From contig JADLCD010000110.1 in assembly GCA_020847395.1 (NCBI GenBank), positions 1-64,000 on the forward strand: a DNA stretch of 64,000 bases, given 5' to 3'. The translations under genes and the position numbers were made by a program. Source of the DNA: Chitinophagaceae bacterium (GTDB taxonomy: Bacteria > Bacteroidota > Bacteroidia > Chitinophagales > Chitinophagaceae). Position 1 is the stretch's first letter. The number at the start of each line of letters is the position of its first letter. Below are positions 4,727 through 15,607 of the stretch, piece by piece. The notes below the pieces were generated by a model that saw nothing but the letters and a program-made list of their open reading frames with translations, was not told where the DNA came from and did no database searches.

Positions 4727-6256
4727 ATGAAATCGCAGATAGCAATCATTATATTTTCGGCAATCATGTTTACCGGTTGTAAAAAGTTTCTGGATCTGAA
4801 GCCGGAAACTGCATTGACTTCGGAAACATTTTTTAAAAACGAATCAGATTTTAAACAGGCAGTAAATGCCGCCTATGTTCCTTTGAGGTCTATTTTTAAC
4901 GACAGGTCGTGGGTATTGGGCGAAATGCATTCAGACAATACATACTATCCACGCAATATTTTATTTGGTGCGGTGGATGCTACAGAGAATGTAGCGGATT
5001 TTGCGATGCCGAATGCGGCCAGTTCCGTTTCAGGCATCACGCTTACTACCAACGGTCATGTACTGAATCAATACAGGTTAGATTACCAGATCATCGCCCG
5101 TGCCAACCAGATATTGGCCAAAATTGATGATGTAGATTTTGATGCTACTTCAAAAGCTAACCTTAGAGGTCAGGCGCTTTTTTTAAGAGCATTTGCTTAT
5201 TTTGAGCTGGCACGTTATTTTGGAACAGCACCCATGCATCTTACCGTAGTAGCTAACAGGTTAGAAGCAGTAGCAGAGCTGGCCAGTAAAGAACAATTAT
5301 ATGCACAGGTAGAAACTGATGCAAAAGAAGCGGTTACTTTATTGTTGCCAAAGTCTGCACAGGAAGCTGGCAGGGTAACATCAGGCAGCGCAAGAATGTT
5401 ATTGGGAGACCTGTATTTGTGGCAAAAAAAATGGCCGGAAGCAGAAGCCGTTTTGAAAGAAATTGTAACCAGCGGTGAATATAGCCTGATGCCTACTTAT
5501 GATAAAGCTTTTAGCGGAACTTCTGATAATAAGAATAATGCTGAATCAGTTTTTGAAGTACAATATATGGAAGGCGCATCTGGGTATAATGGTAGTATTA
5601 TATATAATTTTCTTCCACGCCCAATGACTAAAGCAGAACTAAGCCCTATCTCTGGTGTTCCTGTAGACAAAGCACAGGATCTGTCAGGAGAAGGCAATAA
5701 TATCCCAACTCCTGATATTATTGCTGCATACGAAGCTAATGATCAAAGAAAGGATGCATCTATTGCTTATGTTACGCTAAGCCAAAGCCTTAGGGATAAT
5801 AAAGTGTATCCTTATATCAAAAAATTTGCCAAGCCACATTCGGTGCATGGAAATACCGGTAACAACTGGCCGGTATACAGGTATGCCGAAGTACTGCTGG
5901 CGCTTGCCGAAGCAATTAATGAGCAGGGCAGGCCGGGTGATGCAGATGATTACCTGAACATGGTGCGTAACCGTGCAGGACTGGCTAATACTACTGCAAC
6001 TTCGCAGGCAGATATGCGGGAAGCGATATTTAAAGAAAGGCGAGTAGAGCTGGCATTTGAAAATAAAAGATGGTTTGATATAGTAAGAACCGACCGGATA
6101 CAGGAAATAATTGTGCCGTATGGCGCTAAAATCATCGCTAACCCGAAAGATTATTATTTCCCTGATGGAGCAGTACCTCCGAATAATGCGTTTACAGTGT
6201 TAGATCCATATTATGGTCTTCCTGCTGATGAAGCTGCATTATCACCTTACTTCTAG
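4727..6256 (+). CDS. SusD/RagB-family nutrient-binding lipoprotein
   Basis: Lipobox FTGCKKFLDLKPE, RAFAYFELARYFG, C-terminal IFKERRVELAFENKRWFDIVR; adjacent to SusC. Confidence 0.96.
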   Translation: MKSQIAIIIFSAIMFTGCKKFLDLKPETALTSETFFKNESDFKQAVNAAYVPLRSIFNDRSWVLGEMHSDNTYYPRNILFGAVDATENVADFAMPNAASSVSGITLTTNGHVLNQYRLDYQIIARANQILAKIDDVDFDATSKANLRGQALFLRAFAYFELARYFGTAPMHLTVVANRLEAVAELASKEQLYAQVETDAKEAVTLLLPKSAQEAGRVTSGSARMLLGDLYLWQKKWPEAEAVLKEIVTSGEYSLMPTYDKAFSGTSDNKNNAESVFEVQYMEGASGYNGSIIYNFLPRPMTKAELSPISGVPVDKAQDLSGEGNNIPTPDIIAAYEANDQRKDASIAYVTLSQSLRDNKVYPYIKKFAKPHSVHGNTGNNWPVYRYAEVLLALAEAINEQGRPGDADDYLNMVRNRAGLANTTATSQADMREAIFKERRVELAFENKRWFDIVRTDRIQEIIVPYGAKIIANPKDYYFPDGAVPPNNAFTVLDPYYGLPADEAALSPYF

Positions 6257-13302: not shown

Positions 13303-13354
13303 GGAAATAGTCACCACATAGGCGCATATAGTCGGTAAAATACTTTTGTGATAC

Positions 13355-14101
13355 TTATTGCATTGATTTTAAGCGTTGGATTTCCTCTTGTATTTCCTGA
13401 ATGACAGCTTTGTTTTGTATTTCCTTTTTATTTTTAACTTTACCGGAGAAGATGATAAAAACCTGCCCACCATAATCCTTTTCAAAACTATCAAAATTAG
13501 CCTGCATTCTTTCAGACGGTTTATAGTTGCCAAAATTTGAATTTGCAGTAATTGGCTTTATTTGAATGCCGAAGGCTTTTGTGCCAACTTTTCCAATATA
13601 ATCAATGTCTCCGGCGTGGTCTAAATCGGCATCAGATTCTTCAAATATGATATCTGGGAATATTTTTGATAAACTATCTGTGATAATTGATTTTTCAGTA
13701 ACAAATCCATCATAAGTTCTTGGGATAGTAACCTCATAGATATAATCAACACAATCCTGTAAAGTGATTTTATTAAAAGCCTCAATCCATTCAGGAATCA
13801 CAACTTCTGTAATCTTTTCATATAAACGTTCTCCTAATTCTTCTAATATTTCTTTGGTAATTTTAACAGCATGCTTCTGGGATTTAGTATAAGCCTTCTC
13901 AAAATAAAAGCTTTTCCATTCGTCAAAAGTTTTTGGCTGGCACTGTCGAATTAACTCCATTACCGGCCCGACTTTATTTGGTCTTGTAAGCTGGTAAGCA
14001 TTACTTGTATAGTTCAGCACCTTTTCTTTTTTACCAAAAGGCTTGGCATATTTATACACAGGTTGCTCATTTTCTTCTAATTCTCCCAATTCTTCAACCA
14101 T
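13355..14101 (-). CDS. MjaI-family type II restriction endonuclease
   Basis: YTSNAYQLTRPNKVGPVMELI N-terminus typical of the MjaI family; downstream of and 3 bp from a DNA methyltransferase in the same orientation. Confidence 0.8.
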   Translation of the reverse strand: MVEELGELEENEQPVYKYAKPFGKKEKVLNYTSNAYQLTRPNKVGPVMELIRQCQPKTFDEWKSFYFEKAYTKSQKHAVKITKEILEELGERLYEKITEVVIPEWIEAFNKITLQDCVDYIYEVTIPRTYDGFVTEKSIITDSLSKIFPDIIFEESDADLDHAGDIDYIGKVGTKAFGIQIKPITANSNFGNYKPSERMQANFDSFEKDYGGQVFIIFSGKVKNKKEIQNKAVIQEIQEEIQRLKSMQ

Positions 14102-14104
14102 TGG

Positions 14105-15394
14105 TTATGATTTAAGCAGATTCAAAAATTTTTCTTTGTATTTGAACTCAAATGCTTCGTCAACCTGAGCCAGTCTGTTCTTTAATAAATGAGCGTTTAG
14201 AAAGGTCTTATTTTCCAAATATAAATAACAAAGTAAGTTGTTGTTTTCGTCGTGCATTTGTTTGTCAAATTTCAGAAATACTTTTTTCCCTTTTGTTTTG
14301 TTGTGTAAAAATTCAGTCGCTTTCCCATTAATTTTTATATCTTCTTTTATACCAATCAATCTTACTATTACGTCATTATTTAATCGTATTATTTCTGAAG
14401 TTATTATTTCTTTCACGGTAAAATATTCTTCTCTTTTGGAAGAACTGTTTTTATCTATTTTAGAACCAAATTGTAATTTCTTTATATCAATCTTTTTATC
14501 AAGTTTATGGGGGTCTTTAAATATATATGGAAGCTGACTGATTTGCTTGTCAAAGTTTGTTTGAAAAGTCTCTCTTTTTATAAATTTATATTTTGTTCCT
14601 TCTATATCAGGTTGTATAGCGCCTATTTTTTCTTTTATTACCGGAATAAATTCAGTATTAATTTCAAAGCTTGCTGAATTTCGTCCTAAGTTTTTTGCTG
14701 CGAGAGCTGTAGTCCCACTTCCTCCAAATGGATCTAATACGTTTTCACCATAAAATGAAAACATCTTTATTAATCGCCTCGGTAGTTCTTCCGGAAACAT
14801 CGCAATATGACCATTGTTTTGTCGTGCACCAGCAAAGTTCCAATGACCAGCAAAAAAAGTATTCCATTCTTCTGCAGTCATTTTAGATAACTCTTTTTGT
14901 TCTTTTGTAGGTTTAGGGGCTTCTCCCAGCTTTTTAAAAATTAAAATAAATTCATAATCAATTTTTAAAATGCCGTTTCTGGGATATGGATAAGACCCCA
15001 TTTGTATGCCGCCGCCAGTAGTGTTGGAAGTTGTGACTTTTTGCCAGATAATAGCACCCATGTAATCAAACCCTATATTCTCACAGAATTTGATAATCTC
15101 TTCACGTCTAGGTATTACTTTATATCTGCCATAATAAACTGAGCGGGCAAATTGATCTCCAATATTTATACAGAGCCTGCATCCGTTATGCAAAACACGG
15201 TAACATTCTTTCCAAACAAGGTTTAGGTTGTTGATATAATTTTCATAGCTATCATGAAATCCAATTTGATTATCTGATCCATAATCTTTCAATTGCCAAT
15301 AAGGTGGGGAAGTGATGGCCAAATGCATAGAACTATCTTTCAATTCATGCATCTCTCTACTATCACCATTTATAACTTTATGAAAAGTACTCAC
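14105..15394 (-). CDS. beta-class DNA methyltransferase (probably N4-cytosine) with C-terminal SNase-like domain
   Basis: Motif IV AITSPPYWQLKDYG precedes motif I DPFGGSGTTALAAKNLGRNSASFEI; C-terminal 112 aa resembles SNase. Confidence 0.88.
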   Translation of the reverse strand: MSTFHKVINGDSREMHELKDSSMHLAITSPPYWQLKDYGSDNQIGFHDSYENYINNLNLVWKECYRVLHNGCRLCINIGDQFARSVYYGRYKVIPRREEIIKFCENIGFDYMGAIIWQKVTTSNTTGGGIQMGSYPYPRNGILKIDYEFILIFKKLGEAPKPTKEQKELSKMTAEEWNTFFAGHWNFAGARQNNGHIAMFPEELPRRLIKMFSFYGENVLDPFGGSGTTALAAKNLGRNSASFEINTEFIPVIKEKIGAIQPDIEGTKYKFIKRETFQTNFDKQISQLPYIFKDPHKLDKKIDIKKLQFGSKIDKNSSSKREEYFTVKEIITSEIIRLNNDVIVRLIGIKEDIKINGKATEFLHNKTKGKKVFLKFDKQMHDENNNLLCYLYLENKTFLNAHLLKNRLAQVDEAFEFKYKEKFLNLLKS

Positions 15395-15607
15395 TTATTA
15401 TATTTATTATAACAAATGTACAATTATGCAATTAACTTAATTCTAATGTTAAAAATTTGTAGAATACTGTATGAGAAAATGAATTGTTTGATATTGTTTT
15501 TTATTTCAAATTCCTGCAAACACACAACTGCCCCGCAATATAACCTGCAGGGCAGCATTTGTTTCAACTTCAACCTTTCTATTGAAACGATTTTTAACCT
15601 TTATTTT

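Follow-up and report, generated by a model that had tools for sequence, protein, structure and literature searches.

The window, that is, the whole stretch of 64,000 nucleotides analysed here, carries a pair of tandem genes that appear to form a two-gene Type II restriction-modification (R-M) system of the MjaI/MthZI kind. In R-M systems of this kind, the methylase protects CTAG sequences of the host and the nuclease cuts unmodified CTAG. Taken as a whole, the explanation that we consider probable is that of a mobile pair whose methylase carries an inactive tail of staphylococcal nuclease (SNase) fold, whose nuclease has been exchanged, and which arrived in DNA already depleted of CTAG. In this scheme, the horizontally mobile system would consist of an m4C methylase protecting CTAG and an MjaI-family nuclease that cuts incoming DNA at unmodified CTAG. 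The subfamily of the methylase would be a widespread one, found mainly in Bacteroidota and related phyla and always ending in a domain of SNase fold, which may assist the enzyme in holding or recognising its target and would stand where M.MthZI-type enzymes have a different C-terminal extension. The nuclease gene beside the fused methylase would have been swapped repeatedly for divergent members of its family, through recombination where the two genes meet. The R-M pair is ordinary in appearance; noteworthy are the methylase architecture and the unusually free exchange of endonucleases, and the CTAG depletion around the pair had been over-read.

The gene pair and the two-domain methylase

The methylase gene (14105..15394, minus strand, GTG start) encodes a DNA methyltransferase of 429 aa, matched over residues 3-426 by the PADLOC MTase_II model PDLC03259 (E 1.9e-174). 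Its core, residues ~1-260, is recognised by Pfam N6_N4_Mtase at residues 24-255 (E 1.9e-42), and the motif order is of the beta type, with TSPPYW first and DPFGGSGTT after, suggesting an m4C enzyme. Three bp downstream of the methylase gene, on the same strand, lies the gene for an MjaI-family restriction endonuclease of 248 aa (13355..14101, minus strand), referred to below as type A, which scores 98.6 bits (E 4.5e-28) against Pfam RE_MjaI with a cut-off of 22.7. The putative active site of the endonuclease is formed by D167 and Q180-I-K182 (D...QxK); K182 is invariant, and D167 and Q180 are nearly invariant, among 22 homologues including R.MthZI. A search for solved structures related to this endonuclease found none. 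The RE_MjaI score and the adjoining m4C-type methylase support the two-gene MjaI-type R-M pair of the preliminary description.

The methylase, in a point missed by the preliminary description, is composed of two domains, the core of ~260 aa and an SNase-like tail. Between them lies a conserved linker (residues ~262-316, 14447..14611, minus strand) of the form DPHxLDKKIDxKKLQFGSKID, delimited with alignment A1 and a MAFFT alignment. The tail itself, a C-terminal SNase-like OB-fold domain, covers residues ~317-429 (14108..14446, minus strand) and was recognised from Pfam SNase and from its predicted fold. The length of this core, linker and tail form is nearly constant among the members. Pfam SNase matched residues 358-425 of the window methylase (E 1.5e-6) and all 16 of the aligned methylase homologues. 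Although the AlphaFold model of the full-length methylase was poor (pLDDT 54), that of the tail reached pLDDT of about 80-86 and was aligned by Foldseek with staphylococcal nuclease at E 1e-7, probability 1.0 and rmsd 2.2.

The residue set of active staphylococcal nuclease (D21, D40, E43, R35 and R87) was not found in the 82 tails compared. The equivalent of D40 is K in 79 of the 82 sequences and D in none, that of R87 is N in 73, and that of E43 is mostly P, while the D21 position keeps an acid (E) and the R35 position a basic residue (K/R) in most tails. As modelled, the tail keeps the fold of staphylococcal nuclease without its catalytic residues. Most members have a basic tail region, with a predicted pI of 9.5 in the window and 7.2-9.5 in homologues. 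Because calcium-site and catalytic residues are lost, the tail most likely serves as an OB fold that is basic and binds DNA, and its conservation also points to a contribution to DNA binding. It could be argued from the fold, and from the acid at D21 and the basic residue at R35, that the tail is an active nuclease and the protein a bifunctional methylase-nuclease; given that Asp never occurs at the D40 equivalent, and that those of E43 and R87 are gone in nearly all tails, this is very improbable.

No methylase-SNase fusion was found in a literature search restricted to open-licence papers, a faint hint that the architecture is undescribed as far as those papers go. The fused form is already included in methylase collections, as PDLC03259 covers its full length.

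When ~85,000 species genomes were scanned using the alignment of the tail, relatives of the tail were indicated at up to 448 places, of which the best 80 were analysed. In all of these best 80 the tail is part of a methylase of this one kind, in hosts belonging to Bacteroidota, Ignavibacteriota and Chlorobiota together with a few labelled Myxococcota, Elusimicrobiota and Chlamydiota, records which may include misbinned contigs. An MjaI-family endonuclease is located downstream on the same strand in 73 of these best 80 of 448, and also in a single viral contig; three of the seven fused methylases lacking a downstream endonuclease are truncated where the locus ends. Among cultured bacteria, Hydrotalea flava CCUG 51397, Niabella drilacis DSM 25811 and Foetidibacter luteolus YG09 carry the fused methylase next to an MjaI-family nuclease. 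A phage origin was considered and dropped, since the nuclease occurs in no phage record and the tail in one viral contig only.

Several of these loci differ in gene arrangement. In four (L133:5495-7279, L143:5485-7273, L152:5468-7277 and L165:5468-7274), two extra genes separate the fused methylase from the endonuclease, one for a GmrSD_N (DUF262) protein and one for a HEPN protein, identities that were checked with Pfam in L133 and L143; these genes represent a defence pair nested in the R-M operon. In many loci an ORF of 100-135 aa, not present in the window, lies between methylase and endonuclease (L109:5462-5866, L117:5488-5820, L128:5497-5796, L148:5505-5861, L160, L176 and L165:7244-7612); five of these ORFs gave no Pfam match, and they are perhaps winged-helix regulators. 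At L102:5506-6222 a fused methylase that lacks an MjaI-type partner overlaps with the ORF after it, of 238 aa and GIY-YIG-like by eye, which had no match in Pfam, PADLOC or PDB and is possibly a non-homologous endonuclease swapped in. The fused methylase at L168:4212-6917 is without an endonuclease, and the next protein has weak matches to Csx1/Card1 CARF domains, while that at L079:1771-3129 (genome G239) has a longer C-terminus and no adjoining endonuclease and is a possible orphan methylase. On two megaplasmids, of Paenibacillus (L025:2877-4690) and Brevibacillus (L026:3405-4690), an MjaI-family endonuclease adjoins an ASCH-domain gene; no methylase was found among the annotated neighbours of either endonuclease, and DUF262 is also present beside that of Paenibacillus.

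Endonuclease exchange and the recognition sequence

The endonucleases beside the fused methylases were classified into types A, B and C and mapped on a methylase tree of 76 rows. The bodies of A and B endonucleases are only about 34% identical. The tree requires 26 changes of endonuclease type, against a mean of 27.5 with shuffled labels, and its well-supported branches force at least 13 changes. Since type changes are as frequent as with shuffled labels, the endonucleases have been exchanged beneath a constant methylase. Pairs of closely related methylases that stand beside endonucleases of different type share 84-90% DNA identity across the whole methylase gene, and the similarity ends at the methylase/endonuclease junction, the 3' end of the methylase gene. 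In one such pair (L120/L144), the similarity returns over the final ~110 bp of the endonuclease gene, pointing to homologous replacement of the endonuclease body; the tendency of the nuclease C-terminus to follow the methylase is clear in this pair only and weak overall. Divergence in place was excluded as the main cause, because endonucleases of the same type are ~70% identical beneath distant methylases. When core and tail were mapped separately, 29 changes were obtained for the core and 24 for the tail, against ~27.4 with shuffled labels. The value of the tail, based on few alignment columns, was as low in 26 of 200 shuffles, indicating at most a weak trend for the tail to follow the nuclease type.

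The methylase core is 33.8% identical to M.MthZI (core only) with different conserved motifs, and it is no nearer to M.MthZI (~34%) than to methylases without assigned specificity (35-38%). By this identity, the other motifs and the extra SNase-like tail, the window methylase falls outside the M.MthZI / M.MjaI / M.BfaI subfamily. With the core only ~34% identical to M.MthZI, the CTAG assignment rests on the nuclease side, where the partner exchange provides two independent chains. In one, the nuclease adjoining a fused methylase 68% identical to that of the window (L039) is 46% identical to R.MthZI, and nucleases about 50% identical to R.MthZI also stand beside fused methylases at L113, L149 and L175, the L113 contig holding only the C-terminal part of its methylase. 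In the other, a fused methylase 76% identical to that of the window (L036) is accompanied by a nuclease 72% identical to that of L052, and the L052 methylase shares 51% identity with M.MthZI, for which 4mC methylation of CTAG has been characterised experimentally (PMC5867850). As each endonuclease must be blocked by the methylase next to it, protection of CTAG is the most likely role of the fused methylases. Drift is possible in MjaI-like nucleases, and it might be supposed, from the 34% identity of the core to M.MthZI and the 27% identity of the window nuclease to R.MthZI over the aligned part, that the window pair recognises another sequence, to which the CTAG count would be unrelated. However, both chains tie fused methylases to MthZI-type nucleases or methylases, and nuclease exchange under one methylase requires a shared site, so we regard a different recognition sequence as unlikely.

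CTAG scarcity and the age of the cassette

An exact count gave five CTAG sites in the window, at 6253, 7416, 15108, 39315 and 50079, identical to those listed in the preliminary description. One of them (15108..15111) is inside the methylase gene and another, at 6253, overlaps the TAG stop codon of a SusD-family ORF (4727-6256), both as described. The number expected is 228 from base composition (roughly 200 had been predicted), 152 from a first-order model and 63 from trinucleotides, the maximal order. The scarcity thus stands against the maximal-order Markov expectation, with an observed/expected ratio of 0.08 and a Poisson probability of 4e-21 for five or fewer sites. This ratio is the lowest among all 256 tetranucleotides in the window, the next being that of GGCC (0.53). 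No match was obtained in a pattern search with CTAGCTAG.

The pair is contained in an inserted cassette (13303..15607), flanked by two convergent host genes, a DUF3748/PD40 gene and a PspC gene. The GC content of the cassette is 0.326, against a window mean of 0.397, and is the second lowest among 124 windows of 2 kb. In the relatives G244 and G196 the DUF3748 and PspC genes are ~180-190 bp apart, and the nearest relative, G244, thus represents an empty site. The low GC and the empty site in the nearest relative make the cassette look like a recent horizontal acquisition. Fragments of the methylase or endonuclease are present in other relatives (G281:C2:11399-11860, G076:C126:106239-106502, G008:C37:123393-123680 and G120:C36:21345-21491), consistent with decayed copies and frequent loss.

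CTAG was then compared among genomes by genome-wide counts of the pattern WWCTAGWW, with expectations derived from samples of 4-84 kb per genome (small and weak for G300, G303 and G305); the reversed pattern, GATC, was rejected as denominator because GATC itself is variable. The pair is present in three of the 13 genomes of the genus and both genes are absent from the other 10, while CTAG is depleted in all 13. WWCTAGWW occurs at 7.9, 9.6 and 8.5 per Mb in the carriers and at 8.5-19.7 per Mb in the non-carriers (Mann-Whitney p = 0.064), five of which, at 8.5-9.3, are within the range of the carriers. The sampled, composition-corrected ratios are 0.07-0.13 for carriers and 0.06-0.23 for non-carriers. 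In a comparison spanning 15 genera, carriage had a weak effect (permutation p = 0.03) that was not robust, with p = 0.15 once genera with MthZI-type or divergent partners are omitted. Neither among the 13 genomes of the genus nor across the 15 genera were carriers found to be depleted clearly beyond their non-carrier relatives.

The depletion had been proposed to fit long-term selection by a CTAG-cutting enzyme, a view against which equal depletion in relatives lacking the pair was to count, and such depletion is largely what these relatives show. That the resident enzyme itself has long selected against its site is distinctly unlikely: the ten genus members lacking both genes are depleted, five of them nearly to carrier level; the corrected ratios overlap; the carriers G180 and G207 are not depleted relative to their genus mates; and the cassette is of low GC with an empty site in relatives. 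Avoidance of CTAG that does not depend on R-M is furthermore documented and general, under-representation having been recorded in 55% of the site-genome pairs tested, against the presence of a CTAG system in 0.9% of bacteria (PMC4687349), in agreement with the caveat of the preliminary description that CTAG is rare in many bacteria. Some observations favour such selection. Within its genus, the window's genome (G000) ranks near the bottom in WWCTAGWW per Mb, 2.5 times below G244, the nearest relative with an empty site (p = 1e-7), and two carriers elsewhere stand far below their genus mates, G203 with 7 against 33-45 per Mb and G273 with 4 against 12-17. From the difference between G000 and G244, some added selection is possible, as a modest avoidance due to the resident system or an older resident system in G000. 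The CTAG scarcity is nevertheless common to the genus and older than the window cassette, of which it is no footprint. Of the earlier reading, an MjaI-type pair, very probably specific for CTAG, is supported, and the depletion as a record of long-term selection is not.

This older depletion could in turn be the trace of earlier CTAG R-M systems, since lost or replaced, that passed through these genera, with the present cassette as the latest visitor. Carriage is patchy (22 of the 299 genomes of the family), several genomes contain fragments of the nuclease or incomplete methylases, three of the 13 genus members have clearly divergent nucleases, and published cases of avoidance have been explained as traces of lost systems (PMC4687349). 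Avoidance is, however, also common in bacteria without known CTAG systems, and a general cause such as TA-step structure, repair or insertion-sequence targets may suffice (PMC4687349); we therefore hold the passage of lost systems to be a possible explanation, though a somewhat doubtful one.

Known relatives and implications

With the MthZI system of plasmid pFZ1 of Methanothermobacter (CTAG, m4C), the window pair shares the combination of an MjaI-family nuclease with a beta-type m4C methylase, and a few fused-methylase loci hold nucleases ~50% identical to R.MthZI. In contrast to the window methylase, of which only the core can be compared (34% identity), M.MthZI is without the SNase-like tail, and the MthZI genes are on opposite strands whereas those of the window are in tandem. 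The MjaI system of Methanocaldococcus jannaschii defines the Pfam family RE_MjaI, to which the window nuclease belongs by score and which M. jannaschii alone among the control genomes matched, but it is distant and has a methylase without the fusion, those of the group measuring 303-364 aa (PMC5867850). The tail resembles the staphylococcal nuclease (thermonuclease) family in predicted fold, and differs in lacking the calcium-site and catalytic residues and in being fused to a DNA methylase. The PADLOC family PDLC03259 (Type II methyltransferase) matches the window methylase in full length but is labelled as methylase only, the tail being unnamed there.

The misreading of CTAG scarcity as the footprint of a resident R-M system calls for caution, as the cassette looks young and the scarcity is common to relatives that do not carry it. 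The analysis also exposes a widespread architecture, in which a dead nuclease fold is fused to a DNA methylase. With some reserve, as a suggestion that is plausible but falls short of being probable, this large, phylum-crossing group of CTAG methylases may have turned an inactive staphylococcal nuclease into a DNA-binding module essential to them, and may serve as a constant chassis for swapped, strongly diverged endonucleases of the same specificity, perhaps evading nuclease inhibitors of phages and plasmids. The family provides a natural experiment in which the endonuclease has been exchanged many times while the methylase stays, and by which the drivers of endonuclease turnover become directly testable.
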